Part shown: positions 30,995-51,718 of the stretch, in pieces | Position numbering within the stretch: position 1 is the first letter of the stretch | How the letters are laid out: each line of letters opens with the position of its first letter | From: Gemmatimonadaceae bacterium | GTDB lineage: Bacteria; Gemmatimonadota; Gemmatimonadetes; Gemmatimonadales; Gemmatimonadaceae | Assembly (NCBI GenBank): GCA_019752115.1 | Contig: JAIEMN010000020.1 | Coordinates: 1 to 64,000, forward strand | Length of the DNA stretch: 64,000 nt | Direction: 5' to 3' | Position numbers and translations under genes: made by a program | Notes under the pieces: generated by a model | What the model was told of the DNA's origin: nothing | The model's input: only the letters and a program-made list of their open reading frames with translations | Database searches by the model: none

Positions 30995-31021
30995 GGAGCC
31001 GCCATCCCTCAGGGCGGCTCC
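30995..31021 (-). terminator. Hairpin at the end of the giant operon
   Basis: GGAGCCGCC (30995-31003) and GGCGGCTCC (31013-31021) form a 9-bp stem that spans the stop codon of the RCC1 lipoprotein gene. No T run follows, so it may slow rather than fully end transcription. Confidence 0.45.
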
Positions 31022-34000: not shown

Positions 34001-34689
34001 GCGACGGGCCGCACGAGGGCCGTGGCCGTGAAGGTCACGCTGCCGAAGTTGGGCGCGCTCGCCAGCAAGGTCTGCGCACCGGCGCTGTTGCCCAGCGTCC
34101 AGCTGGTGGTCGCTTCCCCGTTCACGTCGGTGGGGGCGCTCGCCGGTGTGGCACTGCCCGAAGGGGTCGTGAACGTGATGGTGACATTGGCCAGTGGTGC
34201 ACCATCCGCGCGCACCGCGCGCACGCGCAGGAGCGTGGACAGCGTGGCCCCGAACAGGCCGGTCTGCGCATCACCGGCAACGCGCTCGAGCCGTTGGGTG
34301 CCCGCCGGCGTCACCGTTACCGGCACGCCGACCTGCAGCGCGCCGACCGCCGCGCGCAGCACCCCCTGGCCAGGCGTCACACCGGTCACCTCACCCGTGC
34401 TGCTCACGGTGAACACCGCCGGCGCACTCGATTGATAGCTCAGTGTGAGATCCGACGGCACGGCGATTGACTGCCCCGCGCCGTCTAGCAGCTGCGCGGT
34501 TACGCGTCGCGTCGTGCCGGCGGTCAGCGACACACTCGGCGCATCGAGACGCAGCGCCTTCGGTGTCCCCGAGCCCGTACGGGCGCCCCCGTCAATGAGC
34601 AGATCCTTGCAGGACGCCGTCAGCATCAGCGCCGCGGCGCTGCACACGAGACGGCGCCACGCGGTGGCGGAGCGAAGGAGACGGCGCAT
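31009..34689 (-). CDS. Large lipoprotein: Ig-like domains, BACON-like repeats and seven RCC1 blades
   Basis: The 1226-residue protein has lipobox LTASC (Cys27). Three Ig-like units (Big_2/Big_1 type) span about 45-310. Four repeats of about 100 residues follow; two are very alike (LSPDTLDVRTTTNGAAVQR and LSQDSISVRNWSDGPSVRR) and resemble BACON-type domains. Residues about 880-1226 hold seven RCC1 repeats, each with CWGxNxxGQxGxGT and a conserved extra Cys, which would make one complete seven-bladed propeller. In bacteria such propellers serve in binding or surface display. It is last in the five-gene operon and its start shares one base with the stop of the barrel gene. Confidence 0.88.
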   Translation of the reverse strand: MRRLLRSATAWRRLVCSAAALMLTASCKDLLIDGGARTGSGTPKALRLDAPSVSLTAGTTRRVTAQLLDGAGQSIAVPSDLTLSYQSSAPAVFTVSSTGEVTGVTPGQGVLRAAVGALQVGVPVTVTPAGTQRLERVAGDAQTGLFGATLSTLLRVRAVRADGAPLANVTITFTTPSGSATPASAPTDVNGEATTSWTLGNSAGAQTLLASAPNFGSVTFTATALVRPVATVTVTPATLAFTAIGQSAPLTAVARDLLGGVVNVAAFAWTSSNPSVAIVSPTGLVTAVGDGTATIAASTGTISGGAQVTVSLPVAQPRLAFQPESIVVTMPVLGAKVSAQTEVVDAGGAAPSTLGTISCSAITDIGGTAGWATLESCGGVVRITATAPDLTGQGRAYTQRSYVDVSGSLASNSPKRLILRLNATVADIPVIRVLPAGTRRWNHVPSVRDSGLYADTLSISNGGGGTLSGLSVAVTYAPGQPTGWISTVVLTRTETGYALAYRVNRGALPTGMYSATLRVTSTQAGVLPADVPILLDAGPFPTIGLSPDTLDVRTTTNGAAVQRAVDILEVNGLGDAALGAITCRAPRYTDESGWLTVVRCADSLVVRVDPGTNYAGTTTASVWVLAANARDSVRLSVQQTVTQGGGGGTPIAVLGLSQDSISVRNWSDGPSVRRAIDIRDVNGLSDAALGALTCRVRLGESNTPWVTVERCADSLVVNVSPANFNGTDRASVWVIAANAADSVRLRVQQTAFPADLLLEPSTLNLSATFGGAAVRGAVALGAQVPIGSPTTYPRSELNAARCTIVSVPAGAPALSVAKCGNDSVAVLATPDAAAGTYTYLIDIDAPTAKGPPGAVRLTVNVTVTSSGPSAVDAMQVSALYTLCAKRLSGNTLVCWGANSSGQLGNGTRTRAAYRSPVQVPAGTTFTMGPGQATHCAIASGTQTGFWCWGSNGFGQVGDGTFNDALVPTRVLLNAGSYQKIAAGNGAACAIADNTLYCWGLNSYGQATSTVTPWVNSPVAVSLSGVTDVAPGYNHTCALASGLYCWGIAWSVGNGGTSTAAVRTPTAIAFPDAVPTTGLVTGFDASCLRNAANSALYCWGPNGYGATGTGISGTVSRPTRVTFPTSGSISWVAMGENHACAIVGGDTYCWGSNSYGQLGDGTTNDRTTPVRLAFDPGFSQIWTQVHTTCGLVAATSRVMCWGYGLTGEIGNGLENNALTPTYVKEPP

Positions 34690-36395
34690 CAGAAGCTTCG
34701 ACTCACGGACGTGGTAAGGAACGACTCACGGAACGCGCGGCGCACGCCCAGCGCACCGTATCGTTGCAGGCGCGCATTGAGGTTGAGGCGCGTGGCCCAG
34801 AAGATCGGCAGCATCACCTGCGCGGTGGCGCCACTCACCTCGCGCGCCGCGACGAAGGTGCGATTGTAGCCGGCGGAGAAGGTTCCCTTCCCCTTGCCAA
34901 GACGGGCACTCGCGCGGAAACCACCAGTTACGTTGTTCTGCGCGGCGGTGCCTCCGCCATCGCTCGACACGCCATTCACGCTCGGCGACAGCGAGAACAT
35001 CCCGACCGGCACGACCACACCGGCGGACCACGTGCGCACGGTGATGGCCGGAATCGCCCGCACGGGATTGGCGTCTTCGTTCTGCTGCCAACTCCCGCCG
35101 CTGGTGAACACGAGCTCCTTGCCCGCCACGGTGATTGGCACGCTTGCCTGTGCGGTCAGCACGCTCGCCGCATTGTTCACGAGCAGCGTGTCGTTGGCGG
35201 CATCGTTCTGCGCGAGATTGTGCACGCCCGTCAAAGCGAGACTCGCCCGGCGCGCGCGCACCATGACCCCCGCCGTGTAGACGTCGCGCATCGTGGTGAA
35301 CCGCTTCTGCCCCAGCAGGTTGTCCGCCTGCTGCTGCACGCGCCCCTGCAGTTGCAGATGGTCGCCGAGCAGGCGCACATCGCCGCCGGCAAACCACGCG
35401 CGGCGATCATTGATGAGATAGGCCACCCCCAGACTGCCATAGCCGGCGCCAACCTGCTCCATACCGGCGCGCACGCCAAACTGAGGCGCGCGATACTGCG
35501 CCTCGGCGTTCCAGGCGAGATCCGCATTGGACGACAGCCGCACCTCGGCGATGGAGCTGCCAAGCAGGCCGCCGCCAGAGACACTATCGCGCTGGATGAG
35601 CGGACTGGTGCGATCACGCGTGAGCAGCGCACCGGCCACTTCACCCTTGAGCTGCAGCGCCTGACCCAGCAGGGCCAGCGTGCCACCAAGCGAGGCCACG
35701 AGGTTGGACTGCGGGCGCGTGAACGCCTGCGGGCGCAGATCCGCCGGGAGCGTATCCAGACCGAGGGTGTCGATCCCGGGGCGATCATCGGGGCGCAGGG
35801 CGTCGAGGGCTCGCACAACCGTGAGATCGAGTGAGCGCTGCCCCACACTGCCCAGCCCGATCGTGCCCGCCACCACGGAGCGCTGATAAACCGGGCCCCC
35901 CACGGCGGTCTGGATGGCATTCTGACTCACGCCGCCCTGTACGGAGGCGCGCAGCACGCCGCGCGTGAGGTCAATGCCGGCGCCGCGCAGCCGCAACCCC
36001 TGCAGCGTGTACGCGCCGTAGTCCTTGGAGAAGTCGCCCAGATGCACGGTCCCCCACGCGAAGTGCGGCTCGAGTCCGAGTTGAGGCAGGCGCTGCCGGA
36101 ACTCCGCCCCTTCGTTGGAGACCAGCAGGTCCACGCCGACGCTCGTGGCCCCAAAGAGCCGCAGACTCGGCGCCGCCTGCATGCGCCACGTGCTCCCCGG
36201 GCGGCGTGGCGTGATGCCGCTGGCGCCATACAGCTCGTTCGACATGAGCAGACTGCCGCTCAGACGACCCGGCGCCCCGGCAGCGGGCGACGGTGCCGGT
36301 TTCGCCGTGCCCTGCGCGTGCAGTGCGCCCGACCATGCGGGCGTCGTCAGCACGCTGCGAAGAGCCATACGCAGCACGCGCTGGCGTGTGCTCAT
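34689..36395 (-). CDS. Predicted outer-membrane beta-barrel protein, 568 aa
   Basis: The protein has a signal peptide (cleavage about after ALHA, residue 27). A long series of strand-turn-strand segments with alternating polarity ends with the aromatic terminus SVSRSF typical of outer-membrane barrels. The family is not recognised. Fourth gene of the operon: it overlaps the TPR gene by 4 bases and the RCC1 lipoprotein gene by one. The most economical idea is that it anchors or passes the giant protein and the lipoprotein at the outer membrane, but this is inferred from position only. Confidence 0.8.
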   Translation of the reverse strand: MSTRQRVLRMALRSVLTTPAWSGALHAQGTAKPAPSPAAGAPGRLSGSLLMSNELYGASGITPRRPGSTWRMQAAPSLRLFGATSVGVDLLVSNEGAEFRQRLPQLGLEPHFAWGTVHLGDFSKDYGAYTLQGLRLRGAGIDLTRGVLRASVQGGVSQNAIQTAVGGPVYQRSVVAGTIGLGSVGQRSLDLTVVRALDALRPDDRPGIDTLGLDTLPADLRPQAFTRPQSNLVASLGGTLALLGQALQLKGEVAGALLTRDRTSPLIQRDSVSGGGLLGSSIAEVRLSSNADLAWNAEAQYRAPQFGVRAGMEQVGAGYGSLGVAYLINDRRAWFAGGDVRLLGDHLQLQGRVQQQADNLLGQKRFTTMRDVYTAGVMVRARRASLALTGVHNLAQNDAANDTLLVNNAASVLTAQASVPITVAGKELVFTSGGSWQQNEDANPVRAIPAITVRTWSAGVVVPVGMFSLSPSVNGVSSDGGGTAAQNNVTGGFRASARLGKGKGTFSAGYNRTFVAAREVSGATAQVMLPIFWATRLNLNARLQRYGALGVRRAFRESFLTTSVSRSF

Positions 36396-37114
36396 GCGCC
36401 ACCTCCGGTGAAGCGCCGAACGACGGCCACCGCCGAATCGGCCAGCCCCATCTGCTGCAGCACTCGCACCTCACGCCCCAGCAGCACCGTGTCCGCGGGA
36501 TGCAGGAGCCGGAGCCGCATGACGGTCTTGTGCAACTCGCCCATGGTGCTGGCCCGCTGATGCCGGTGCCACAGAGCCTCGAAGGCTTCGACGTCGGTCG
36601 GGTAGCCATCCAGCAGGCGCTGCCAGGCGTCGGTAGCGTCGGGCTCGCGACGCAAGGCGTCGAGCGCCCGGGCACGCCCGCGCAAGAGCGGCACGTTGCG
36701 GCGCTGCGCACGCAGCAGCCCATCAAAGAGTCCAAGCGCGCGCAGCGGCTCGCCATCGGCGAGCAGCCGCTGCGCTTCGTACTCGCGGAGCAGGGCGGCA
36801 CCGGGATACTCCCGCTGCAATGCGCCGAGCGTCGTCCGTCCGTCGCGTGCCTGCAGAATGGCCGTGTCGAGCAGCGCACGCGCCACGTCGAGCAACCGGC
36901 GCTGTGCGCTGCGTCCTTCCTTGTCGAGGCTGTCGCGCCGGGCGATGATGCCGCCCTCCACGCGCTCGAGGTCACGCAGTGCCGCGCGCGCACGGCCGGC
37001 GACAGTGGCGTCCACCGACTGCGCGCCGAGCGGCGCCCTGTGGGGTACGCTGAATCCCGCTGCGAGACACGCGGCGACCAGTGCACTCACGGAGCGTTGG
37101 CGAGCGCGCCTCAT
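36392..37114 (-). CDS. Secreted TPR-like protein, 240 aa
   Basis: The protein has a signal peptide (MRRARQRSVSALVAACLAAGFSVP..., ending near GAQS). Helical TPR-type pairs follow (EYEAQRLLADGEPLRALGLFDGLLRAQRRNVPLLRGRARALDAL and similar). It is Ala/Arg/Leu-rich with no catalytic motif. It is probably a periplasmic adaptor. Third gene of the operon, overlapping both neighbours by 4 bases. Confidence 0.8.
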   Translation of the reverse strand: MRRARQRSVSALVAACLAAGFSVPHRAPLGAQSVDATVAGRARAALRDLERVEGGIIARRDSLDKEGRSAQRRLLDVARALLDTAILQARDGRTTLGALQREYPGAALLREYEAQRLLADGEPLRALGLFDGLLRAQRRNVPLLRGRARALDALRREPDATDAWQRLLDGYPTDVEAFEALWHRHQRASTMGELHKTVMRLRLLHPADTVLLGREVRVLQQMGLADSAVAVVRRFTGGGA

Positions 37115-39135
37115 CGCGCCCCCGCCACGGGCGTCACGAGCCCTTGCGGCACCGACTGGTTACCGCTCGTATCGATGGCGCGCACCGTGTAGTACGCCGA
37201 CGCGGGTGCCGCGGCGTCAGTGAACGTGTGGACGCCCGGTGCCACCCGGCCGATCTCTTCGAGCCGCCCGTAGAGCGAGGAGGCGCGGAACACGAGATAG
37301 CCGGCCAGATCGCGGCTCATGACCCGCTCCCAGCGCAGCTGAACGGTGCTGCCCGAGCGCACCGCCGCCACCGCACGCGGCGCGGACGGGCGCTCCTCGT
37401 CGCGCTTCGTGAGCGAGTCCGTGGCGGGCGCCGAGCGATTGCCCGCGCTGTCCACCGCGAACACCGCGTAGCGCAGCGGCACACCATCGGCCGCCGCCGT
37501 ATCCACGAGCATCAGCGGCCCGCGCGCGCCGGTCTGTCCGATCGTGCGCATGGCCTTGCCACCCGGCTCGGTCACGTCAACGACATACGCGCCCACATCG
37601 AGCGACGGGCTGGCGGTCCACGTCACGGTCACGCTGCCGCCAAAGCGCCCCTGCGCGCGCACGAGGCGCGGGGGCGCGGGCGGCTCGTCATCAGGCACGG
37701 TGAGCATGACGAACGCCGGCGGCGACGTGTTGGCGCTGCTGTCGACCGACACGATCTCGATGCGATACGTCTTGCCCGGGAGCAGACCGGCGCCCGCGGC
37801 CGCGCTGTCGACGAACGACGTCGCGGGCACCGGCGTCCCCGTCAGACGCACGGACGTGCCGCCGGGCGCTGCGCGATACACGTGATAGCCGGCGACATCG
37901 TGCGCCGGTGGCGCCTCCCAGCGATACGTGGCCCGACGTCCGGCGCCGAGGGTGGCCGTCAGATTGCGCGGCGCCTCAGGTGGTGTGCGCTCCTCGGCGC
38001 GCGTGGTCACGGGCGTGGCCCATGGACCGGCGTTCCCGGAGCGGTCCACGGCGCGCACGCGCCACGCGTAGATGCTGCCACCGCGCACGGTGGCATCGAC
38101 AAACTCGGGGACGGCCGCCGGGACCCGCGTCGTGGTGAGCCGCGTCCACGTCGAGTCGCTGCCGCCTTTGCGGCGCTCGACCTGATAGCCATCCACATCG
38201 GCATCGGGCGACATCGCCCACACGATGCGCACGCGCCCATCCTGCACGTCGGCGGCAACATCGAGCGGCGCGAGTGGCGGCAGACGGTCACGCATGGTGG
38301 CCTGCACGACGGGACCCGCTTCACCCGCGAGACCACCGATGAACACGGGCACCACGCGATAGCGGTACGACGCGCCATCGGTGACATCCGAGTCGAGCCA
38401 CCCCGGTGTGCGCGCATCATCGCGCACGACGGGGTCGGCAATGAGTGGTCGCCACGTCGTGTCGCCGCCCACGACCGCGCGTTCGATCAGAAAACCGACC
38501 ACCACATCGGTGGCGTCGCCCGCATAACGCGGATAGCGCCAACGCAGTTGCATCCCTTCGAGCGCAGGGACCGCCTCGAGCGCCGTGACGGGCAACGCCG
38601 CACTTGGCGCACGACGCAGCGTCGCCGAGAAGCTGGCGCGCACGACGCCGTCGGCGCGACGCACGAGCTCCGCGCGATAGCTGGTTCCCACGTCGCGCCC
38701 GGGCGCGCCATCGACCGCGAGGCGCCCGGTTACCGCCGCAATGTGCCGCGACAACAGCAGTCCGGTATACGACACCGCGCGATCCGAGAGCAATCGACGC
38801 ACCAGAGTCACGGCATCGTCAGCCCGCGTCAGTCGACGGGCCAGCGGCAGATCCGGCCCCAGGCGTTCGGTGACCCGATCGGCCGACCGCTCGGGCTCCA
38901 GCCCATCGGCCACGACGCGACCATCGGCGCGCGTCACCCGCCACCCGTGGCCGCGCGGCGCGATGGAGTCGATGACGATGTAGACCGAGTCGGCGCGCGC
39001 GACGAGGAAGAGCGGGCTTCGCGCCGCCGACGGAGCCGCCGGCGGCAGCCCCGGCTGCGCGGATGCCGGTGCAGACGCGAGGAGGCCCATCGCGACCCCG
39101 ACGGTTGCCCGCGAGAGAAGACGAGTGTGTGTCAT
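37111..39135 (-). CDS. Secreted protein with five FN3 domains, 674 aa
   Basis: The protein has a signal peptide (to about residue 27, ASAQ). An N-terminal domain of about 165 residues is not recognised. Five fibronectin type III domains follow at about 193-289, 290-385, 386-482, 485-580 and 583-674, each with a P-x-A-P start and W or Y core residues (RIVWAMSPDADVDGYQVER, LRWERVMSRDLAGYLVFRA). FN3 arrays act as spacers or binding modules on bacterial surfaces. Second gene of the operon, overlapping by 4 bases on both sides. Confidence 0.88.
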   Translation of the reverse strand: MTHTRLLSRATVGVAMGLLASAPASAQPGLPPAAPSAARSPLFLVARADSVYIVIDSIAPRGHGWRVTRADGRVVADGLEPERSADRVTERLGPDLPLARRLTRADDAVTLVRRLLSDRAVSYTGLLLSRHIAAVTGRLAVDGAPGRDVGTSYRAELVRRADGVVRASFSATLRRAPSAALPVTALEAVPALEGMQLRWRYPRYAGDATDVVVGFLIERAVVGGDTTWRPLIADPVVRDDARTPGWLDSDVTDGASYRYRVVPVFIGGLAGEAGPVVQATMRDRLPPLAPLDVAADVQDGRVRIVWAMSPDADVDGYQVERRKGGSDSTWTRLTTTRVPAAVPEFVDATVRGGSIYAWRVRAVDRSGNAGPWATPVTTRAEERTPPEAPRNLTATLGAGRRATYRWEAPPAHDVAGYHVYRAAPGGTSVRLTGTPVPATSFVDSAAAGAGLLPGKTYRIEIVSVDSSANTSPPAFVMLTVPDDEPPAPPRLVRAQGRFGGSVTVTWTASPSLDVGAYVVDVTEPGGKAMRTIGQTGARGPLMLVDTAAADGVPLRYAVFAVDSAGNRSAPATDSLTKRDEERPSAPRAVAAVRSGSTVQLRWERVMSRDLAGYLVFRASSLYGRLEEIGRVAPGVHTFTDAAAPASAYYTVRAIDTSGNQSVPQGLVTPVAGAR

Positions 39136-42100
39136 TGCGGCACCACGGCACGAACCACGAGGCTCGTCACGCCCGTGCCGTTCTTTGAACGCACGCGCAG
39201 GACCAGCGAAGAGGTGGGGAGCGAGGGGACGGCGATCGTATAGGTCCCCGTGCCCGCCACCGCGCCCGTGACCGCCGTCCAGGGCAACAGGGTGACGCTC
39301 GGGTTCCTCAGGTCCACGAGAGGCGGCTCATCATCGAGGCGCACCTCGAGCCCCGCGAAGCCAGACTCAGGATCAGCCGGCGCGGAGACAGTGAGCTTGA
39401 ACTGGTAGCCGGTCCGGCCGAGCGTCGGTGTGCCCACCAGCGTGATCAGTGGCGTGGGCGGTGGCGTGAGATCCACCGTCAGCAATCCGCTCGCGCTGAG
39501 GTCACCGCGGTTGCCACCGTTGATGGCACGCATCTCCACCATCAGCTGCCCCGCCGCGGGGAAGACGAGCCGTGGCACGCGATAGGTCGTGTTCACTTCG
39601 GCGTTGGCCGGCACGTCCACGTCAGACGTGGTCGCCGGGAAGCCGGTGAGCACGTTGCCGGCAGCATCCTTGAGGCGCAGCTGGTAGCCGCGGATCCCCG
39701 ACTCGGTATCGCGGGAGACCTGCGTGAAGCGCACCGCCGCGCTGCCCGCGCTCCCTTCGAGGCAGAAGCCCGGCGCGGGTGCGGGCGTGGGATCGGCGAG
39801 TCGCGCCGGCACCGCCGTCACCACCGGCGTGCTGAATGCTCCCGCGCCGTTGCGCGCGGCGATCGACACATACACCGGCCGCTCGTAGGGCACACCGGTC
39901 ACGGTGAACTGCGTCCCTGCCGTATCGGTGAGCGCCACCCAGGCATCTCCCTCCACCGCCGTGGGGGCAACATCCGACACGAGCGCATACCAGCGACTGA
40001 TGCCGCTCTCCGGATCACTGATCGCGGGCTTCGCGACCACAAACGCGCCGGTGGTGGTGGCGTCCGGTGCCGTAATGGGCGTGAGCGCCAGCGTCTTCGC
40101 AGCAACAAGCGGCGTGGCCGAACACACTGCCTGCACGACGATCGGCGTGGTCAGCCCCGCGAGCGAAACGGAACGCACACTGCCCAGCTGCAGCGTTGTG
40201 CCGGCGGGTGCGGCCGGTGCCGTCGCATCTTCGCGCAGCACCAGCGCGCCGGCAAAGCCCGTCAGCCCCGCGCCGTTCACGGCCAGGATCTCCACCTGCG
40301 CCACCTTCCCCGCCGACGGCGGGGGGGGAGTGAGCAGCATCGTGGTGCGACCGCCCAGCGTCGTCCACGGCACCAGCTCCACCGGCTGCAGGGTGCGCAG
40401 CGGCGTGTAACCGGTTGGCGAGACGCTCACCGTGCTGGTCGTGCCCGGCGCATCGCGCTCCACTACGCGATAGCGATATTCCTGAATGCCGCTTTCGGCG
40501 TCGGTTGCCTGCCACGCGAGTGCCACCGCCTGGCCGCGCGTTGCCCACACCACGTTGCTGCCGTCGGTCGCAACCGTCGCCAGATTGGACGGCGCGGTGA
40601 TCACCGGCACTCCCGGCGGCGTGGCGTCCGGCGCGAGCGCTGTACCGCTCGTCGCCACCGGCGCGGCCGCCGTGCCGCGTCCAAAGGTGAAGGTGAGGGG
40701 CGGCGTGCCGCGCGTCGTGCGCGTGCCACCAGCGGCACGTGCGCCCAGCTGCGCGGTGAACGGCTGTGTGCCGCCCGCGAGATCCGTGCTGAACCGCCAG
40801 GTCGTATACGTGCCCAGGCTGCCCAGCGAACGGCGCAGCGCATCGCCGTCCACGATGGTGTACTCCGACACACCGGCCGGGTGCGTGGCCGTCCAGGTGA
40901 TCTGTCCGCGGCTCAGGTAGCCGCGATCCTCGACGGTGGCCTGCGCGGTGCCGATCTGCGGCGCCAGTAGCAACGGGGCGATCGCATCCCGACGAGCCCG
41001 CACACGGATGGCCAGCGAGTCCGTGGGATTGAGTTCGCGCAACATCGCGTCGTAGATGTCGAACACCGCGCCATACAGTTCGAGTTGCGCGTCCGACACC
41101 ACCGCCGTGCGATCGGAGATCTCGGCGTGCGCCGCCCGGACACGCTGGACGGCGGCCGTGGCGGTGGCGGCCGTGGCCGCCACCTCGCGTACCATCGTGG
41201 TATCGAGCGCGGCGAGCCCGAGATCCGCGGCCCGGTTGTACAGCTGCATTGCCAGCGTGTCGGCCTGCTGCCGCATGGCGGCAACCTGCTGATCGAGCCC
41301 GAGCGTCTTGATCGACGCCTTGGTGTTCTGCCAGGTGGTGGCAAACGCCGGATCCTGGCCGAGCGCAGCGATCACCGTGGCGCGCGCGTTCGCGACCTCT
41401 TCGAACTTGAGCGTCTTGGCCCCGCTGGTGAGATCCGTCCGCGCGGTGACACTGTTGCTCACGCGGTCCACGAGATCACGGAAGCTCGCCCGACTGTCGC
41501 GCACGAACGTCAACCCATCGCGCCTCCAGCGCCACCGCCGCATCTGATAGTCCACCGTGGACGCCTGCTGGCGTTCGGTCGCCTCGACGGCATCGCCCCA
41601 GAGGCGTAGATAGCCCATCAGCGAACTGCTCTCGGTGGCCGAGAGTGCGGCGCGCACACTGTCGAGCGAGGCCTGCGCCTGCCCAAGCGCTCGCGCCACC
41701 TCAGCCTGTCGCGCGGTGACCTTGGCCCGCACGTCGGTCATCGTCGCGCGATTCTGTGCGGCCACCGCGTCGTCCACATCGAACGTGGGCACGCCGTTCA
41801 GCGTGCCGGCGCTGCGCTGCGCACCGGCGATGGGCGTGGTCGACGCGCCGGCGATCGACGGATCGCCCACGGCGAAATTGCGCACCGGATTCGGGAGATC
41901 GGGCATCACCACCGCGCGCACCGAATCGATACTCGCGCGCAGCGCGGCAATGCGCGCCAGCATCTCGTCGCGCCGGGCCGCGAGGTTGGCGAGCTTGCGC
42001 TCGGCGTCGATCCGGATCGCCGCGATGGCGGCCGTATCCGACGGCGCTGATTTCTGCGTGAGCAGGTTCCAGTACGTCCCGAGATACGGCGTACGCACCG

Positions 42101-45100
42101 CCGGGCGATCGAGTCCGGCATCGTAGACGGCTTCGCTGCCCACATTGAACGCGACCCCGAGGAACGCGAGCCAGTTGCTGCCGCTGGCCCACCCCTTCGC
42201 ATTGTCGAACACGCGTGCGAGCGTCGCGTCGCTCGCCACCACCGGCGTCACGGTGATGTTGTTCACCTGGTTCTGCACCGCACGGATGATCGAGTCCGCT
42301 TCGGCCTTGAGCTCATCGGCCACGGCACTCGCCCGGGCAATGGCCGCGTTCATCTCAGGGTTGTCGCCAAGCCCGCCGCCAAAGCCCTTGCCCGAGATAC
42401 TCACCCAGAACTGGATCTGCACCGACTCGCCGAGCACATAGGCCCGGCCGCCGCCCGCGGCGTACACCGCCACCTCGGGCAGAATGATCAGCGCCCCCTT
42501 GAGATACGCCGAGATGCCAATGAGCCCCGGGATCTCCGCCACCCCCTTGATCTCCACATATGCGCCGAGATCATTGGTGCCGGGCCGGAACCACATGGTG
42601 CCCTTGAGCTGGGCTTCCAGCTTCACGACCCAGAAGGTGCGACCCAGCGTGACCGTGAGGTCTGTCGCGAAGCCGCTCGGCACGATGATGACGTTGGCGT
42701 CGGCCGTGAGCACCTTGATCATATCGAGCTTGACGCCGCCCTTGATGGCGAAGGCGTTGCCGCCCACGGCGAACTGCAGACGCCCCGTGCCCACCGCGGT
42801 CGAGTCGAAGGCGATGCGCACCTCCACATCACCCAGCAGATAGGCCGCCGGGGACCACCCCACCTGCACGGCGATGTCCCCCTGCAGCTCGTTCGCCTGC
42901 CCGAGGAACACCATGTTGCCGTCCAGCCGGAACGCCTTGTCGGTGACCGTGACGAGCACCTGGCCGGCCACCATGTACTTGCCGCCGGCACCGAAAGCCG
43001 CCATGCGCGCGTACAGCATGATGGCGAAGTCGCTGGCCGGCGGGGGACCCATGCGCGCCGCTGGCCCACCCGTGATCCCGGCGACCTGACGCACCAGGGT
43101 GAGATCGTCGGGCTCCGGATTGATGAAGAAGCCGCCGCCCACACCGGTCAGGGCCACCGCCCCCGGAATGATCGTGATGTCCACCGATGCCGCCACGAAC
43201 ATGCCGACGCGCATCGTCCCGCCGCGGTTGCCGACCACGCCCATGAGGCTCACGCCCGTTTCGCCCATGAGCTTGGCCGAGCCGGCTACCTGCAGCGCGA
43301 ACCCGTCGGTGTACTCATCGAACCGCATCGACGCCTGCATCTCGAACACATCCGAGACCTTCGCGTACAGCGAGTCCACCAGGATGTGGTTCGTCTTGTC
43401 ATCGGCCAGCTGATAGACCAGTACCCGCTTCACGCCACCGCTGAACGTGTTGGCAATCGTGACGCTCGCGCCAAAGCTCAGGTACGACGCCACGCGCACG
43501 TTGAGCATCGGCGGCGTGGTCAACGCACGGCCGGTGGGGCGGGTGTTGGTGCCCGGCACGGCGATGGTCGTTTCCGTCGAGCTGAAGCCAAGGTTTCGCA
43601 CGTCGAGGCGGAAGACCTCGGTGATCTTGATGAAGCCGCCATCGAAACCGGCCGCGCCAAAATCGAACTCGCCACGCTCGGTGAAGCGCACATCGCGGAA
43701 CGTGAGCCCCCCGCTCGAGTTCTGGATGTTGAGCCCGAGGCCGCCGGAGAAGCTCGCCGACAACCCGCGGGCGCCCACCACCGCGGTGATGGTCGTCATG
43801 GTGAGCTTCACCGGGCCGTACTCGACACTGATGGGCTGCACGATCTGCAGGCCACTCCAGGTCACGCCGGTCGGCGCGATGCGGAGCCCCGACTGCACCG
43901 TGCCGCCGCTCACGGACCCGAGTCGGATCAGATTCTCCTGCTTGTTCTGGATGTAAATGTCGGAGACGAGATCCACCGACGTGCGTTCGCGCGGCCGCTC
44001 GAAGTCGATCGTGGCCGCGAGGTGACGCACGTGAAAGGTCGCAATGCCGAGGTCCACCTTTCGCTGCGCGGTGGCGAGCCCCTCGTTCTCACGCACCAGC
44101 ACGAGCGTGCCCGCACCCGAGACGCGCCCGTCGGGCGCAACGCTGAAGCTCACGCGCTGCAGCGCATTCTCATCGAAGGGCGCCGGCAACGACACCGAGG
44201 CTGCCGCGCGCAATGTCCCCTGATCGATGCGCAGCGTATCGAGGAAGAAGCGGTCCTGGACGATGGCGATGGGGCGGTTGATCAGGCTCGCGCCGGCGAG
44301 CGAGAGCGTGCCGTCGCTGCCGATGCGCAATCCATAGAACCGACTGGTGTTTTCGAACGCCGTGACCTGACCGGCCATCTCGAGCTGCAGCGTGGCGCCA
44401 TCGAAGCGACCCGCGAGCGCGGGATACACGCGCGTACTCCCCGACAGGCTATCGCGCAGCGCGAACTGCAGGCCGAAGAGCTGGAATTGAATGGCATTGC
44501 CATTCGTCACCGAGACCGGCGACACCCGCAGCCCGTCGGAGCCGATATGGATCGTGTCCACGGCCACGGTGAGCCCCGGCGCGAGCGTCGTGAGCTCGAT
44601 CGACGCGCCGAACTCCACGGCAAACCGTTGCGCATCGGCATGCACGCGGATCGCCGTGCCGGCGCTCGGCGTGGACGGCCGCAGCGTGGCGACGCCCAAT
44701 GGAATGCCACCGCCGCCGAACGCCGACAGATCCGCGCCGGCCGCGAACCCGGTCGTGTTGACACTGCCACGCAGGAAGAGCGGCGTGGGTGCGCCCTGCG
44801 CGTTCTTCAGCACGGCGCTCGTGATGGTGCCGGCGATCGCCACGCTCGGCGCCTGACCCGCGGTGAGATCAAGCCGCGCGCCGGTGATCGCCAGCACGAG
44901 CGAGTCACCCGCGAAACGCGCCTGCGCTACCGTCGGGAGTCCGGCGCGATAACTGTCGGTGAGCGTGCCCGCTTCGATGGTGCCGCTCAGCCCCGTGCGA
45001 TCAACGACGATGTTCTCGAACGTGATGGGCGCCGACGAGATCGAAGCCGGCAGGCGCACGCGCGCACCCGCCGTGAGTTGCCATCCCTGGCTGCCGAGCG

Positions 45101-48100
45101 CAAAGCCAACGCGGGTGATGTCGATCGGCAGCCCCTGCAGCGGTACCAGCGACTGGCCAGCCGGCGCGTTGACCTGCAGCGCGCCGCCAACCACCTGCAT
45201 GGTTCGCGGCTCCACGACGAGGTCGAAGGCCGTCTGGAGTCGGGGCGCCGTACCGCCATAGGCCAGCGATGGCAGCACCAGATCCACCGTGCGCCCGCTC
45301 GGCGTCCGCAGATGCGTCCGTCCGTCAGCCGTCGTCGCGAGCTCCACGAAGCGTCGCGACGCATCGCCGAGCACCAGATACGCCACATCCGCCGACGGCA
45401 GATTGAGGCGATCGGGGATCGGCAGGATCGCGAACAGGTCACCCGGGCGGAAGCCGGTGGAATCCACCGTGGCGATCAGCTCGCCCGCGCCCCGGCGGAA
45501 GCGCGCGGCACCGGTCGTGACGCGCACCGGGCCGTCGGTCGCCAAGCGGAATCCGTTCTCGAAACCGACCCCCAGATCGACGAAGCTCGAATCGCCGAAG
45601 GCGAGGCTCGCGGTGGCCGTGCCGCTGATCGCCACACCGGCCGAATCGATGACGAGCCCGGAGGGCAGCGTCAGGCGGAACCCCGGCCCCGTGCCACGCG
45701 GCGTATTCGCGGGGAATGCGCCCCATGCGAGCCCCGCCGCGCCAAGCTCCGCCCCGAGCGCCAGGTTGGAGGTGACCGTGGCCTTGCCGCGGACCAGCCG
45801 CTTCTCGACGAACGCGTACGCGAGATTGTCGAACGTCACCGCGGCACCACCGCCGCCGCCGAGGCGCAGCGCACCGCCACCCGTGAAGGTGAGCGCCGTG
45901 CGGTCGAGCTGCGCACGCTGCACGGTGAAGTTCACGATCGGATTGCGTGGATCCGGTTGCCAGGCGAACGGTGAGGTGATCTCCGCGCTGGCGTCGATGA
46001 TCTCACCCGTGACGAGGTTCACCGCCAACCGGCCGTCCGCGCGAACCGAATCGCTCGCCGTGCCCGTTGCGGCCGCTACGCGCATGGTGCCATCAAGCAC
46101 CACACTCGGCGCGACATTCGGCCCTGCCGTGAAGTCCACGCGCGAGTCGAGCATGCGGAAGGCCAGCGGGCCGAGCAGGCCCGTGCACGTGGGCGCGAAG
46201 CCGGTGATGCGGCCGCGCACCGCACCGCTCGGCAGCAGCTCCAGGGTATCCTTGGGCGGCGTCGCGCCGGGCAGTCCGGCAATGGCAACGGTGCGCGCCG
46301 CGGCGGCACAGCCGAAGACGTCGGGGAGCCGCACATCGGCGCCCACAAAGATGTGTGCTTCACTCTGCGTGCCCACCGCGAACGAGCCCCAGGCCGAGCG
46401 GATCGCGCCGAACGGCGTGGAGAGCCCGTCGGTGAACTGCACCGGCTCGATCGAGCCGCGCAGCGCATTCTCGCGCCACCCGAGATCGAGCACGCGTACC
46501 TTGAAGGCGGCGAGATCATACGGCGGCGCGGCGGCCGGCGCGGCGAGGCTCAGTTCCGCATCCAGCCGAATGTCGACAGTCGGCACCGTGCCGAACTGCC
46601 AGTGCACGGCGCCCACGCGCAACGCCAGCGGACGCACCCCAAAACCCGCCGCCTGGATGGGGCCAGCGGCGCGCTGACCGAAGGCGCCATCGGTCATCAT
46701 CTGCGAGGAGATCTCGGCGATCTCGAACGACGGAATATCGATGCCCGTCTCGCGCACATGCACATCGCGCAGCGTGGGGATGGCGAAGCCATTGAGCGCC
46801 GCGATCTCGACCCCCATATCGAAGAGCAGGTCGAAGCGCACCCGCTTGGTCGTGGCGTCATACGTCAGCAAGGGCAGACGCGGATTGCCCAGCAGGAACG
46901 CCGCGCCGGGCGCGCCGAGCCGCAACGGGCCCGCCGTGTTGGCGCGCACATCCACGAACTGCGCATTGTTCGGCGTCAGGCGCAGCGTGGCGCCCAGCGT
47001 CCACGGCTGCTGCCCGTCGAGCGCGAGCGTGAGCCCGCCCACGGCATCGATCTGGAAGGTGAGCCCGGTGCTGACCGTGCCACCGAACGTACCGGCCAAC
47101 CGATCGACCTGCAGCTGGACCTGCGGTGAGCCCAGGGGCAGCGTGCGCGCCACCGGCAGCGTCACCTCGCCGGCGAACTGTCCGTTGCCGTCGATGGTGA
47201 GCGACACGCGCCCGGTGGGCGACGCTTCGCCCAGCAGGGTGAGTGCCGCCGCCAGTGAGAGCCGGTACGCCGCGGTGGGCGACGGCCGGTCGTAGCGCAG
47301 CTCCTCGATGGCGAACGGCATCCCGCCCTGCGCGAGGTCGAAGCCTGCGACGCCCTTCACCGACGCGACAATCGCGCCCGTTTGCAACGCCAGAGTCGTC
47401 TTGTCCACCAGGACGTCGAAGCTCACGCGCACCTGCGGCGGAGTGCCCCCACCCGTGCCCGCGAGCGCAGGCACGACCAGCGCAATCGGCCCGGTGGTGG
47501 TCGCGAGTCGCCAGTTGGTGCCGGCATCCACGACATTCACGAGCAGCGCATCCGTCGTTTCATCACGCAACTGCAGATACGCGACGGCTTCGCTGGGAAG
47601 CGCCAATCGCTTCGGAATCTTCGAGGCCACCAGCTCGGCCACGGCCGGTCGCCATCCGGTCGTGCTCCAGATGGCGACCGGCGTGCCGCTCACCTGCAGT
47701 GTCGCGGTGCCCTGGGATACCGTCTGCCAGTCACGCAACGCGAAATCGTTCGAGTAGACGAGTTTCGCCGTCGTGTTCGTGGAGCCGAACAGCTGACCGA
47801 GGATCGGGCTTTCGCCGCGCAGCGCGAGGCCGCGACTGTCGAGGAAGGGCTTGCCGCTCACATCCACGCGGAGGCCATTCACGATCGCCGCAGCGCCGGT
47901 CGGAGGTCGCACCCGGTAGTCTCCGATCGACAGCGCCGTGCTCACCACATTGGCCGCGAGCTTGATCACCTCCAGCGTCTTGCCGAAGTCGGTAGTGTCC
48001 TTCGCAATGCCGGCCGTACTCAGCGTATCGCTGGCACCCGTCTCGAGCCCAAAACCCTGGGCGAACGTCACCACGCCGGCGTCGAAACGGCGCGTGCCGA

Positions 48101-51100
48101 CATTCAGGCGCACGCCGCTCCACTGGGTCATGGAGCTATCGGTACTCTTGAGATACAGCAGCGGATAGCTGCCATCCACGAGCAGCCCAAGCGTGTCGAG
48201 CACCACATTGCGGAGTCGGAACCCGAGCCCCTTGATCGGCTGAACGACAAATGGCCCCTTGATGGTCCACTTGCCGCGGATGACCCGTCCGGTGTTCCAG
48301 TCGATCTCCACGTCAGGGTTGTCCGCGTCGGAGTTCCCCGGTGCCGGGAGACTGGCGTTGGTGAGGCTGCTCACCGCGCTCGTCGCCGTGTTCGCACCGC
48401 TCGCCGTGGAGTCGGTCTTCGCGGCGAGTTTCGCGAGGCTGTCCGCCGTGGCATTCACCTTCGAGAGACTATCGGCCCATGACGTGTTGAACCGGATCAG
48501 CGACTGGAGCGCCGCCGCATCGGCGGAGTCGTGCGCGGCACTCGACGATTCCAGTTGGGCCTCCAATACCGTGCGACGCGCATCGAGTCGGGCAGCGGCG
48601 GCAGAGTCGGCGCTGGTCCCCTTCGCGTTGAGCGAGTCCGCTTGCTCACTCAGCGACGACACGATGGTGGAGATCGAATCGCGCGACGCGTTGATCGCGG
48701 CCGCCTTGAGGGTGGCCGAGTCGGTGGCCAGGAAGATCTTCTGCGCCGAGTCTTTGGCCGCGTCCTGCTGCGCCAACCGCACCTTCCTCGCACTGTCGGC
48801 CGCGGTCATCACCGGGGTCGCCGAGACCGATTTGCCGTACCCGTCGTGATCCGCGAGTGTGGAATCAAAGCTGATGCGCGCGCCGCCGATCCATCGCACC
48901 GATTGACCCGTGCTGCCGCCGGCGGGAGGACCAAAGAGGAAGCGACCCGTGTACGGCGTCAGCTTGCCGAGTCCCAGCGTGACGTCACACGCCTTGTCGA
49001 GCGAGGCCGAGCCCATCAACTGTCCGCGTGCATCAATCGGGATGCTCTTCACCAGGTTGCAGACACCGAGACCATCGAGCACGCCGTTGATGTGCTCGCC
49101 CTGGATGGTGAGCGCCGCCTGCTTCAACCAGGCCGCCGCATCATCGACCGTCTGCATGAGGCCCGGGGCCAGCGCCGCCAGCGATCCGCCGCCGCTGCTC
49201 GAGGTGGTCGCCCCTGGCGGCGGCCACGTCGGACCACTGAGCACGCCCCGCGCGCTCGGCAACGTCGTCGCCTTCGCCGTCGCGCCAAGCGCAATGGCAA
49301 TGGGCCCACCGAGCCGGTATACGGCAAAATTGAACCCGGGCGCAACCGGAACGACGCAGCCGTCATTCCATTTCGCCTCGGCCGCGATCCAGGACACCTG
49401 CCCATCGCGAATGCGAAAGCGGCCGGTCGGTGACAGGCGGAATCGCTGACTGAGACAGGGCACGATGCCGGTCACACCAGGCTCGAAGAAGGCATCGCCC
49501 TCGAGCTCCCACGCATAGGGCGTGGCATCGGTGGCCTTCCAGCTCGTCCAGGCGCGCGCAATCTCCGCATGCGCGCCGCGCCGCCAGATCACGCGGAACT
49601 GATCGAGCACGCCCGGGGCATCAGGACTCAACAGGTCCGGCAGCGTCGGAAAGACGATGCTGTCGTTCGTCGCGTACGCGTTCACGAACGCGGGCATCGG
49701 GAACGCTGGATTGGCGACGAGCTCCGGGCTGGCCTGAAAGCCCAGCCGCCACCGAAGCTGGCCGTCGGTTGCCACGCGCACCGAGTCGAGGCGCAGGAAC
49801 TCGTAGCGCAGACGAAGCCACGGCGCGACCTCCTGCACCGCCGTGGCGCGATCGCAGCGGGAAACCTGCGCCACCCGCTCCACCGAATCGGGCGCGAGAC
49901 GCAGCACCGTCTCCACATGGCACGCCGCCCCGTTGCCCCCGAAGAGACGCACGTGCCCCGAGACCGCGACGCCATACCCCACGGTATCGGCCAGGATATC
50001 GGCGGTGACGGCGCCACTCATCGTCTCCACCAGAAAGTCCGTCGGCGCCCCACTGGCCAGCGACACCGCGCCAGCCCCGCGGCAGTTCACCGCGGCGCGC
50101 AGCACCCCGTTGTCGGCGCGCGCCCACACGTCGTCACAGCCACCGGTCGCCGAACCAAGCAAACGCACCGAGGCGCCCACGTCGAGCGCACCCGACGGCA
50201 AATCGAGCCGGGCGCGCCGCAACGCAAGCTGCAGCTGCGCGCGACCCACGCGCGCAAACCCATCGCTCGCCGTGCTACTCCCCTCACGCCGTCCGTACCA
50301 CCCGAGCGCGGTGAGCTGATACGCACCGTCGAGAGGTACGGCGCCCTGCCCCGGCGCTCCCACCTGCACGGTGGCGGTCACCCCGGTCGCCGCCGAGACG
50401 AGCAGCTCCCGGATGGACGCCAGCGCCGACACGCTCGCGGGCAGGAGCCCGCGCGGCGCCGACACGCGCAGTTGACCGCCCACCAGCCACGCGTCACCGC
50501 CACGCAATCCCACGCGCAGGCCACTCGCCTGCACCGGCAGCGCCGGCTGGGTGGGCAGCCCAAGCAGCACGAGCGAGAGCGGGCCATCGACCAGATACGC
50601 CCCCGACGCGAGGTCGGCGCGGACGCGCGCCGCGCGCAATCCGCGCAGCACCGCGACGCCCGGCTGCACGATGGCCTCATCGCCGAGCGTGCCCGTCGGG
50701 CCCAGGGGGCCCAACAGATCGCTCGCCATGGTGAAGACGTGGATCTCGCTCGCGACCTTGTCGCGGAACAGCAGCTGCCCATCCGCGGCGGTCGCGATCA
50801 CCTGCCAGGCGTAGGTCTTGTTCGGCTCGAGCGGCAACCCCTCGAGCGGATAGAGCAGGAACGGCGTGCCGGTCACCACCTGATCCACAACCGGGATGTT
50901 CGCCGAGAGCGCCACCGCCGGGACCTGCGTGCCGATCACTTCGACGACTTTGAGACGATAGCCTACCCCGACCTCAGGGGGCGCATTCACGGGGGTCCAC
51001 GAAAAGAACGGCTGCTGGGTGCGCACGATGTCGTCGCGCACCGGCGTGATGAGCTGTGGCGGATCCGGGAGCAGGATCGTGAAGTCCGCACAGGACTCGC

Positions 51101-51530
51101 TCACCACGGTGCGGGTCGCGCCACGCAGCACCGTTGCGCAGGCGCGGTACCGGCCTTCGGGGATCTGACCGGTCCGGCTCACCTGATCGGTGAAGGCGGC
51201 GTTCTTCGAGGTCGTCGTCCAATCGAGCGCCGCATCGCGCGCGTTGAAGAGCAGCGTGACCGGTCCGCCCGGCACCGCCGTGACCGGACTCTCCACCGAT
51301 CCCACGGCGCCCCGTTCGGCGCTGGTTACCGACACCCGGACCACGAAGTCGGTGGCCGCTTGGCCACTGTACGTCACGTTGAGCACCGCCGTCGATGGCA
51401 CGCGCTCCCAGTCCGACAGATACGGGCTGGGATACGCCTGGATCGTAAGCGTGGACGACCAGGACGGGTCCTGTGCGTGCAGCGCGGGACCGGCGACCAG
51501 TGCGGCGGCGAGAAGGAGCGAGCGTTTCAG
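39132..51530 (-). CDS. Giant exported protein, about 4132 aa, apparent CTG start
   Basis: First gene of the five-gene operon. Starting at the GTG at 51401 leaves no signal peptide. Reading 43 codons further upstream gives an N-terminus of the form (M)KRSLLLAAALVAGPALHA-Q, a textbook Sec signal, from CTG with GAGG six bases before it. Residues 44-270 are FN3-like. About 910-1065 is an Ala/Ser/Asp-rich coiled coil. The centre (about 1070-3095) is a long beta-rich region; blocks near 1300-1390 and 2030-2117 are homologous (IPxRLxLPSxxVAYLxLxD). A second helical region spans 3160-3515. The C-terminus has four FN3-like units, each with D-x-E-S-G-(I/F), near 3681, 3843, 3944 and 4057. There is no sortase motif or known secretion tail. 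It is probably a surface or periplasm-spanning fibre. Confidence 0.85.
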   Translation of the reverse strand: MKRSLLLAAALVAGPALHAQDPSWSSTLTIQAYPSPYLSDWERVPSTAVLNVTYSGQAATDFVVRVSVTSAERGAVGSVESPVTAVPGGPVTLLFNARDAALDWTTTSKNAAFTDQVSRTGQIPEGRYRACATVLRGATRTVVSESCADFTILLPDPPQLITPVRDDIVRTQQPFFSWTPVNAPPEVGVGYRLKVVEVIGTQVPAVALSANIPVVDQVVTGTPFLLYPLEGLPLEPNKTYAWQVIATAADGQLLFRDKVASEIHVFTMASDLLGPLGPTGTLGDEAIVQPGVAVLRGLRAARVRADLASGAYLVDGPLSLVLLGLPTQPALPVQASGLRVGLRGGDAWLVGGQLRVSAPRGLLPASVSALASIRELLVSAATGVTATVQVGAPGQGAVPLDGAYQLTALGWYGRREGSSTASDGFARVGRAQLQLALRRARLDLPSGALDVGASVRLLGSATGGCDDVWARADNGVLRAAVNCRGAGAVSLASGAPTDFLVETMSGAVTADILADTVGYGVAVSGHVRLFGGNGAACHVETVLRLAPDSVERVAQVSRCDRATAVQEVAPWLRLRYEFLRLDSVRVATDGQLRWRLGFQASPELVANPAFPMPAFVNAYATNDSIVFPTLPDLLSPDAPGVLDQFRVIWRRGAHAEIARAWTSWKATDATPYAWELEGDAFFEPGVTGIVPCLSQRFRLSPTGRFRIRDGQVSWIAAEAKWNDGCVVPVAPGFNFAVYRLGGPIAIALGATAKATTLPSARGVLSGPTWPPPGATTSSSGGGSLAALAPGLMQTVDDAAAWLKQAALTIQGEHINGVLDGLGVCNLVKSIPIDARGQLMGSASLDKACDVTLGLGKLTPYTGRFLFGPPAGGSTGQSVRWIGGARISFDSTLADHDGYGKSVSATPVMTAADSARKVRLAQQDAAKDSAQKIFLATDSATLKAAAINASRDSISTIVSSLSEQADSLNAKGTSADSAAAARLDARRTVLEAQLESSSAAHDSADAAALQSLIRFNTSWADSLSKVNATADSLAKLAAKTDSTASGANTATSAVSSLTNASLPAPGNSDADNPDVEIDWNTGRVIRGKWTIKGPFVVQPIKGLGFRLRNVVLDTLGLLVDGSYPLLYLKSTDSSMTQWSGVRLNVGTRRFDAGVVTFAQGFGLETGASDTLSTAGIAKDTTDFGKTLEVIKLAANVVSTALSIGDYRVRPPTGAAAIVNGLRVDVSGKPFLDSRGLALRGESPILGQLFGSTNTTAKLVYSNDFALRDWQTVSQGTATLQVSGTPVAIWSTTGWRPAVAELVASKIPKRLALPSEAVAYLQLRDETTDALLVNVVDAGTNWRLATTTGPIALVVPALAGTGGGTPPQVRVSFDVLVDKTTLALQTGAIVASVKGVAGFDLAQGGMPFAIEELRYDRPSPTAAYRLSLAAALTLLGEASPTGRVSLTIDGNGQFAGEVTLPVARTLPLGSPQVQLQVDRLAGTFGGTVSTGLTFQIDAVGGLTLALDGQQPWTLGATLRLTPNNAQFVDVRANTAGPLRLGAPGAAFLLGNPRLPLLTYDATTKRVRFDLLFDMGVEIAALNGFAIPTLRDVHVRETGIDIPSFEIAEISSQMMTDGAFGQRAAGPIQAAGFGVRPLALRVGAVHWQFGTVPTVDIRLDAELSLAAPAAAPPYDLAAFKVRVLDLGWRENALRGSIEPVQFTDGLSTPFGAIRSAWGSFAVGTQSEAHIFVGADVRLPDVFGCAAAARTVAIAGLPGATPPKDTLELLPSGAVRGRITGFAPTCTGLLGPLAFRMLDSRVDFTAGPNVAPSVVLDGTMRVAAATGTASDSVRADGRLAVNLVTGEIIDASAEITSPFAWQPDPRNPIVNFTVQRAQLDRTALTFTGGGALRLGGGGGAAVTFDNLAYAFVEKRLVRGKATVTSNLALGAELGAAGLAWGAFPANTPRGTGPGFRLTLPSGLVIDSAGVAISGTATASLAFGDSSFVDLGVGFENGFRLATDGPVRVTTGAARFRRGAGELIATVDSTGFRPGDLFAILPIPDRLNLPSADVAYLVLGDASRRFVELATTADGRTHLRTPSGRTVDLVLPSLAYGGTAPRLQTAFDLVVEPRTMQVVGGALQVNAPAGQSLVPLQGLPIDITRVGFALGSQGWQLTAGARVRLPASISSAPITFENIVVDRTGLSGTIEAGTLTDSYRAGLPTVAQARFAGDSLVLAITGARLDLTAGQAPSVAIAGTITSAVLKNAQGAPTPLFLRGSVNTTGFAAGADLSAFGGGGIPLGVATLRPSTPSAGTAIRVHADAQRFAVEFGASIELTTLAPGLTVAVDTIHIGSDGLRVSPVSVTNGNAIQFQLFGLQFALRDSLSGSTRVYPALAGRFDGATLQLEMAGQVTAFENTSRFYGLRIGSDGTLSLAGASLINRPIAIVQDRFFLDTLRIDQGTLRAAASVSLPAPFDENALQRVSFSVAPDGRVSGAGTLVLVRENEGLATAQRKVDLGIATFHVRHLAATIDFERPRERTSVDLVSDIYIQNKQENLIRLGSVSGGTVQSGLRIAPTGVTWSGLQIVQPISVEYGPVKLTMTTITAVVGARGLSASFSGGLGLNIQNSSGGLTFRDVRFTERGEFDFGAAGFDGGFIKITEVFRLDVRNLGFSSTETTIAVPGTNTRPTGRALTTPPMLNVRVASYLSFGASVTIANTFSGGVKRVLVYQLADDKTNHILVDSLYAKVSDVFEMQASMRFDEYTDGFALQVAGSAKLMGETGVSLMGVVGNRGGTMRVGMFVAASVDITIIPGAVALTGVGGGFFINPEPDDLTLVRQVAGITGGPAARMGPPPASDFAIMLYARMAAFGAGGKYMVAGQVLVTVTDKAFRLDGNMVFLGQANELQGDIAVQVGWSPAAYLLGDVEVRIAFDSTAVGTGRLQFAVGGNAFAIKGGVKLDMIKVLTADANVIIVPSGFATDLTVTLGRTFWVVKLEAQLKGTMWFRPGTNDLGAYVEIKGVAEIPGLIGISAYLKGALIILPEVAVYAAGGGRAYVLGESVQIQFWVSISGKGFGGGLGDNPEMNAAIARASAVADELKAEADSIIRAVQNQVNNITVTPVVASDATLARVFDNAKGWASGSNWLAFLGVAFNVGSEAVYDAGLDRPAVRTPYLGTYWNLLTQKSAPSDTAAIAAIRIDAERKLANLAARRDEMLARIAALRASIDSVRAVVMPDLPNPVRNFAVGDPSIAGASTTPIAGAQRSAGTLNGVPTFDVDDAVAAQNRATMTDVRAKVTARQAEVARALGQAQASLDSVRAALSATESSSLMGYLRLWGDAVEATERQQASTVDYQMRRWRWRRDGLTFVRDSRASFRDLVDRVSNSVTARTDLTSGAKTLKFEEVANARATVIAALGQDPAFATTWQNTKASIKTLGLDQQVAAMRQQADTLAMQLYNRAADLGLAALDTTMVREVAATAATATAAVQRVRAAHAEISDRTAVVSDAQLELYGAVFDIYDAMLRELNPTDSLAIRVRARRDAIAPLLLAPQIGTAQATVEDRGYLSRGQITWTATHPAGVSEYTIVDGDALRRSLGSLGTYTTWRFSTDLAGGTQPFTAQLGARAAGGTRTTRGTPPLTFTFGRGTAAAPVATSGTALAPDATPPGVPVITAPSNLATVATDGSNVVWATRGQAVALAWQATDAESGIQEYRYRVVERDAPGTTSTVSVSPTGYTPLRTLQPVELVPWTTLGGRTTMLLTPPPPSAGKVAQVEILAVNGAGLTGFAGALVLREDATAPAAPAGTTLQLGSVRSVSLAGLTTPIVVQAVCSATPLVAAKTLALTPITAPDATTTGAFVVAKPAISDPESGISRWYALVSDVAPTAVEGDAWVALTDTAGTQFTVTGVPYERPVYVSIAARNGAGAFSTPVVTAVPARLADPTPAPAPGFCLEGSAGSAAVRFTQVSRDTESGIRGYQLRLKDAAGNVLTGFPATTSDVDVPANAEVNTTYRVPRLVFPAAGQLMVEMRAINGGNRGDLSASGLLTVDLTPPPTPLITLVGTPTLGRTGYQFKLTVSAPADPESGFAGLEVRLDDEPPLVDLRNPSVTLLPWTAVTGAVAGTGTYTIAVPSLPTSSLVLRVRSKNGTGVTSLVVRAVVPQ

Positions 51531-51536
51531 AGGATG

Positions 51537-51540
51537 CCTC
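51537..51540 (-). promoter_or_regulatory. Ribosome-binding site deciding the CTG start of the giant gene
   Basis: On the minus strand GAGG stands six bases before the CTG at 51530-51528. No ATG, GTG or TTG occurs in this frame between here and the signal-peptide codons, so this site and the encoded signal peptide together favour CTG initiation. Confidence 0.55.
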
Positions 51541-51544
51541 GGGC

Positions 51545-51592
51545 GTATCCTGCAATCGACCCATTGCGGGAGCAGGCATCCTAGAATCGACC
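51545..51592. repeat. Direct 17-bp repeats upstream of the giant operon
   Basis: Two copies of a 17-bp element (plus strand G(T/C)ATCCTxxAATCGACC) lie at 51545-51561 and 51576-51592. They match at 14 of 17 positions and are 31 bp apart, close to three helical turns. They sit directly in front of the start of the operon and could be an operator or part of the leader. The gap 51531-51718 holds no gene. Confidence 0.5.
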
Positions 51593-51718
51593 GATCAAGC
51601 CCAGATCAATCGCGCACCGACGCTGGGCGATTGTCGTCAAACGCTTTAATAGCAATCACTTGCACCATCGCCTCGGGCGAGAACGCCCCGCGTGGTCGCC
51701 AGACTGGTGTCAGATTGG

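Follow-up and report, generated by a model that had tools for sequence, protein, structure and literature searches.

In the excerpted account of PMC11983097, FIB rep of F-like plasmids has a CTG start codon behind a good ribosome-binding site and was commonly annotated from a GTG located 14 codons downstream. The same excerpts report that the CTG start was proven by mutation and N-terminal analysis, and argue that this codon was selected for just enough expression. Figures quoted in the available sections of PMC11497404 put the output of CUG at 0.86% of that of AUG, and its share at 0.024% of bacterial starts. A third case is the dnaA leader, where, according to the available part of PMC8443254, an in-frame CUG with a Shine-Dalgarno sequence (SD) upstream of the standard start gives a toeprint and is unused in vivo.

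The window (the whole 64,000-nucleotide stretch of Gemmatimonadaceae DNA analysed here) carries a giant gene whose most plausible start resembles these cases. Within the portions of the literature available to us, FIB rep comes nearest to it as a proven case, sharing a CTG, a good ribosome-binding site, and a downstream GTG that invites misannotation. However, FIB rep is a plasmid replication protein with experimental proof, whereas the giant gene would encode an exported protein known from sequence alone. The CUG complexes on E. coli ribosomes, as presented in the accessible text of PMC11497404, pose the same codon-anticodon problem in the P site, yet on model mRNAs and not on a natural giant gene. 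The dnaA leader, in the excerpt of PMC8443254, also has an in-frame CUG with an SD, but a standard AUG exists there and none does in the window. Titles and abstracts on Gemmatimonadota yielded no study on start codons or giant proteins. CTG starts are already known; what is unusual here is a clade-wide weak start with a good SD on a giant, operon-heading gene for a putative envelope protein.

The original prediction held that GTG 51401, the first standard start of the giant frame, leaves the protein without a signal peptide, and that the frame stays open upstream and begins at CTG 51530. Frame reading confirmed the position of the first standard start and the upstream opening, which extends as far as the TGA at 51608-51606. 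Between this stop and GTG 51401 there is no in-frame ATG, GTG, or TTG, and the only in-frame NTG codons are CTG (51575, 51530, 51500, 51482, and 51419), of which CTG 51419 sits within the conserved motif PSPYLSDWER. The GAGG claimed ahead of CTG 51530 was found at 51540-51537, with a spacer (CATCCT) of exactly six bases. From this CTG, the frame runs for 4132 codons with zero internal stops, in agreement with the length first proposed. The product opens with LKRSLLLAAALVAGPALHA, followed by QDPSW and the remainder of 4113 residues without a stop. We scored signal peptides by a positive n-region, a hydrophobic core, and small residues at -3/-1, with a simple rule that accepts L at -3; the predicted peptide has an n-region with KR, the core LLLAAALVAGPAL, and the end LHA, the textbook features of a Sec signal that had been claimed for it. 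Coordinates are collected in Table 1.

Table 1. Features of the giant gene, its leader, and its operon
Feature	Coordinates	Strand	Basis
Upstream in-frame TGA, closing the giant frame	51606..51608	(-)	frame reading
Probable CTG start codon of the giant gene	51528..51530	(-)	frame, relatives, codon usage
Shine-Dalgarno GAGG, with CTG six bases on	51537..51540	(-)	sequence and clade comparison
Predicted Sec signal peptide LKRSLLLAAALVAGPALHA, predicted cleavage before QD	51474..51530	(-)	rule-based; aligned with homologues
GTG, first standard start, rejected as the start	51399..51401	(-)	frame and homologue alignment
Giant gene for a putative envelope protein, 4132 aa from CTG	39132..51530	(-)	open frame; orthologue frames of about 4030-4070 codons
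Conserved motif PSPYLSDWER (residues 34-43), entirely ahead of GTG 51401	51402..51431	(-)	homologue alignment
Second gene of the operon (674 aa, fn3 domain), overlapping the giant gene at ATGA	37111..39135	(-)	frames; orthologues downstream
Third operon gene, 240 aa, 4-base overlap	36392..37114	(-)	frames
Fourth operon gene, 568 aa, 4-base overlap	34689..36395	(-)	frames
Last gene of the run, 1226 aa, lipoprotein-like, Big_2 and RCC1 repeats	31009..34689	(-)	frames, domains
Leader block TAAAGCGTTTGACGACAATCGCCCAGC, resembling the RBC087 orthologue leader	51622..51648	(-)	alignment read by eye
Inverted-repeat 5' arm AGGATGCCT, 9 bp	51574..51582	(-)	window-specific
Inverted-repeat 3' arm AGGCATCCT, overlapping AGG of the SD and ending at the base next to CTG	51531..51539	(-)	window-specific

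Homologues were detected in 11 of 288 genomes of the order (the window's own genome counted), in 26 of 394 genomes of a class sample at E<=0.001, the weakest being partial domain matches, and in 27 of 395 genomes of a phylum sample that comprises largely the same genomes as the class sample. Searching with the N-terminal alignment recovered 24 named loci on genome contigs, mostly labelled Gemmatimonadota, Bacteroidetes, and Chlorobiota. A scan of named genomes with the whole protein returned zero relatives, and the phylum search added no clade member. In one homologue (L078, from G219) the frame stays open for 6807 codons, well beyond the length of the others. The closest clade consists of the window protein and those of five named Gemmatimonadaceae or Gemmatimonadetes MAGs (SJ530, LakeFargette, GEM1, SSF37, and RBC087). 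A quick tree of 11 rows placed the window protein, with support of 100, as sister to five proteins of another genus of the family, g46, to which it is ~36% identical over the full length; orthologue frames stay open for about 4030-4070 codons.

The same SD-NTG arrangement recurs across this clade, while the codon itself differs. It reads GAGG-N6-CTG in the window, GAGG-N5-CTG in SJ530, LakeFargette, and GEM1, GAGG-N4-TTG in SSF37, and AGG-N5-GTG in RBC087, so that GAGG lies 4-6 bases ahead of NTG in 5/6 members, and the SD-spaced codon is CTG in four (the window included), TTG in one, GTG in one, and ATG in none. The anti-SD CACCTCCTTA is present in two genomes of g46, and none of the six loci has an out-of-frame start with an SD ahead of the CTG.

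At the locus of isolate SJ530 (L004/L047/L073), a TGA lies 33 bases before the CTG. Between this stop and the signal region, the CTG is the sole codon of the NTG or ATN type. The first standard codon after the CTG is a GTG 54 codons on, a situation that matches the window in kind, and the codon score is +14.4 bits over the 54 codons from CTG compared to -3.1 over the 10 before. The CTG of GEM1 is not forced, because an ATG 27 bases downstream likewise yields a signal peptide. The alternatives in LakeFargette are GTG or TTG codons at least 117 bases upstream, without signal-like context, and an ATG 48 bases downstream, which falls within the hydrophobic core. Paralogues and other Gemmatimonadota members had starts that were ambiguous or GTG, TTG, or ATG. 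Asking whether homologues carry ATG or CTG at this codon, as had been suggested, gave CTG, TTG, or GTG in the closest clade and mostly an ATG heading the signal peptide in distant relatives from other phyla. Separately, the SJ530 frame (L073) has a single in-frame TAA at about residue 176 in an otherwise open 4000-codon frame, which could be a base error or recent gene decay.

Given that the closest clade reads CTG, TTG, or GTG at this codon, it is unlikely that an ATG has been masked by a sequencing error. More broadly, an assembly or base error in the MAG, either replacing a true ATG or losing or adding a base so that an in-frame ATG is hidden, would fit a locus taken from a single MAG with ATG 51579 and 51567 nearby in the +1 frame. 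We nevertheless judge it improbable: the SD-spaced codon is CTG (three), TTG, or GTG in independent assemblies, SJ530 is without any standard start there, an extension from 51567 would put D and E residues into the signal n-region, and the 4132-codon frame is otherwise intact.

The same two ATG codons could also begin translation out of frame, with a prfB-like +1 programmed frameshift then leading into the signal-peptide frame. The frame of these ATG codons runs open across the CTG region, and prfB of the same genome has a classical frameshift site, but there is no stop codon at the junction, ATG 51579 and 51567 are without an SD, and the five relatives lack an ATG-started counterpart, which leaves this reading with very little credence. 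Hardly more credible is initiation at another non-standard codon, namely ATA 51548, CTG 51575, or ATT 51587; these share the giant frame, but none has an SD at normal spacing or a counterpart in SJ530, and starts there would lengthen the n-region by low-scoring codons. The codon-usage score was -1.31 bits per codon over the 25 codons before 51530, +0.15 bits per codon over the 43 codons from 51530 to 51404, and +0.46 per codon over the 43 codons from 51398, changing sign to gene-like at 51530.

GTG 51401 is what automatic gene callers would presumably pick as the first standard start, yet it is the least believable start of all, since the protein would lose both its signal peptide and PSPYLSDWER, the equivalent GTG of SJ530 lies 54 codons in, and relatives from other phyla mostly begin at an ATG before the signal peptide. 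In an alignment of 12 N-termini, homologues were alignable upstream of GTG 51401, and PSPYLSDWER, the last codon of which adjoins this GTG, was among the best conserved stretches, with P34, S35, P36, D40, and W41 nearly invariant. The complete product is unobtainable from any standard start codon of the window frame. Translation of the giant gene very probably starts at CTG 51530, as the original prediction had it; homologue alignment, the change of sign in codon usage, the SJ530 locus, and the GAGG-NTG arrangement of the clade all point to this codon. The frame, SD, signal, and conservation are features of sequence and homology, from which we infer the actual initiation event. CTG is not normally among the starts that gene callers take into account, and a secreted protein can thereby be annotated without its signal peptide. 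Misannotation from GTG 51401 would make a giant envelope protein look cytoplasmic.

To place these local features against a background, we surveyed 450,719 bases of the same genome (the window and 20 further stretches, about 9% of the genome). Ahead of the first standard start of long frames there were 972 in-frame CTG codons. SD-like tetramers accompanied 92 of them and signal-peptide-like stretches began at 14, the two features coinciding at 3. Two of these three belong to one gene that is already signal-like from its standard GTG, and the third is the giant gene. If SD and signal were independent, ~1.3 double matches would be expected per 972 CTG, which means that the local features cannot decide the matter by themselves; for the giant frame's own handful of CTG codons, the chance of a double match is about 0.5%. 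It is the homologue evidence that settles the start question.

GAGG occurred 4-6 bases ahead of 189 of 15,273 CTG triplets in this genome sample, and ahead of 7 of 184 standard starts. These 184 starts (131 ATG, 49 GTG, and 4 TTG) were chosen by codon score without use of the SD, with 3 more frames skipped. Any SD-like tetramer was present at only 31 of the 184, so that an SD is not generally required for starts. The pattern in the clade fits a strong SD that compensates for a weak codon; the six sequences are related, and hence no exact probability is attached. An anomaly scan of 245 coding-like frames ranked L098, the giant gene, and prfB as the top three codon-usage extensions ahead of a first standard start. 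L098 has a weak body score and a domain match that begins well inside the frame. The prfB gene (L097, 5689-6789, NCBIfam-confirmed) carries CTTTGAC, which we take to be the classical programmed frameshift site, and provided an unplanned positive control of the scan. No other extension above 3.5 bits was found among 84 coding-like frames of SJ530. Within ~9% of one genome and a smaller part of SJ530, wide use of CTG is not a habit of these genomes.

Searches of Pfam, NCBIfam, and PDB sequences with the giant protein returned nothing above cut-off. The Pfam family Ig_Rha78A_N (PF25788) matched residues 169-268 with 23.1 bits, below its gathering cut-off of 27.4, and was matched by 11/12 members at E up to 1. 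A structure model of residues 20-620 (pLDDT 78.5, pTM 0.61) showed two fn3/Ig-like domains followed by long beta sheets. Residues 2000-2900 were modelled as all beta (pLDDT 73, pTM 0.42), with a weak likeness to porins, LptD, and apoB. The best match to an outer-membrane beta-barrel or LptD/apoB-like sheet, for residues 2573-2900, had Z 11.5 and an rmsd of 13.8 over 249 residues in this model of pTM 0.42. A fold name for residues 2000-2900 was rejected, the structure matches being too poor. The giant protein is likely located in the envelope.

The giant gene heads a run of overlapping genes, with junctions at 39132/39135, 37111/37114, and 36392/36395, followed by a shared base at 34689. The 1226-aa protein at its end joins bacterial Ig-like domains to RCC1 repeats. 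An orthologue of the fn3 gene lies downstream in 7 of 10 other loci (L070-L073, L075, L076, and L079), the rest being cut or unmatched. This fn3 gene also follows the g46 giant genes with an overlapping or abutting start where the contig reaches, and in all four junctions inspected (L070, L072, L073, and L075) its start adjoins or is overlapped by the giant-gene stop. Three loci yielded a match to the 240-aa gene and a single locus a match to the 568-aa gene; these locus stretches end soon after. No relative of the giant gene was found in 29 other genomes of the window's genus, nor of the 568-aa gene in 18 genomes of that genus, while a rhomboid gene at a distance of 5 kb has counterparts with 68-83% identity in 15 of these 18. 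The contig therefore belongs to the genus, and the operon (31009-51530) looks like an accessory island from these comparisons. The upstream neighbour, 188 bases off, is a PAS/histidine-kinase/receiver gene.

As a mechanism, we propose that initiator fMet-tRNA would be placed at CTG 51530 by the GAGG Shine-Dalgarno, and that the first 19 residues would act as a Sec signal for export of a large, mostly beta protein to the cell envelope. The combination of a weak start and a good ribosome-binding site would probably keep output low, perhaps very low if the published CUG output applies. Since the genes behind the giant gene are joined to it by ATGA-type overlaps, translational coupling would probably hold their output down as well. 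Low output, coupling, and selection for weakness are what we infer from this arrangement. The suggestion in the original prediction that a rare start tunes synthesis down is plausible by analogy with published CUG efficiencies and the FIB rep precedent. Only tentatively would we go further, to a non-ATG (mainly CTG) start that selection has kept across the clade and that, together with a strong SD and a leader specific to this gene, would form a fixed translational throttle on the operon of the giant envelope protein; on this view, the weak codon has lasted through deep divergence. If selection does keep the weak start, this locus would be a natural test case for the retention of CUG initiation in bacteria, and for the metering of proteins of >4000 residues along with their coupled genes.

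Upstream of the start, the window has a block (TAAA.CGTT...CAATCGCC.AGC) that resembles that of RBC087 and may be a promoter region. In 4/5 relatives (L070-L073), GATGATAC-N5-TGA occurs upstream with TAGGTTCGCC further down; LakeFargette is divergent. These conserved stretches look like a gene-specific promoter or leader. The pattern GATGATACNNNNNTGA occurs at the giant gene in 4/5 g46 members and in two other places in seven genomes, and was rejected as a regulon motif on that count. The 9-bp inverted repeat could form a hairpin that would mask the SD, at weak significance (z -1.84, with 12/200 shuffles as good), and was not found in the relatives. RNAalifold gave no conserved leader fold (z 0.6 and -0.05 against column shuffles), and Rfam searches of the window and SJ530 leaders gave chance-level matches only. 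Finally, CCCCCACC is absent from the window leader, has a near match in L072, and lies just before the SD or the start in three orthologues and both paralogues (L071, L073, L074, L076, and L077).
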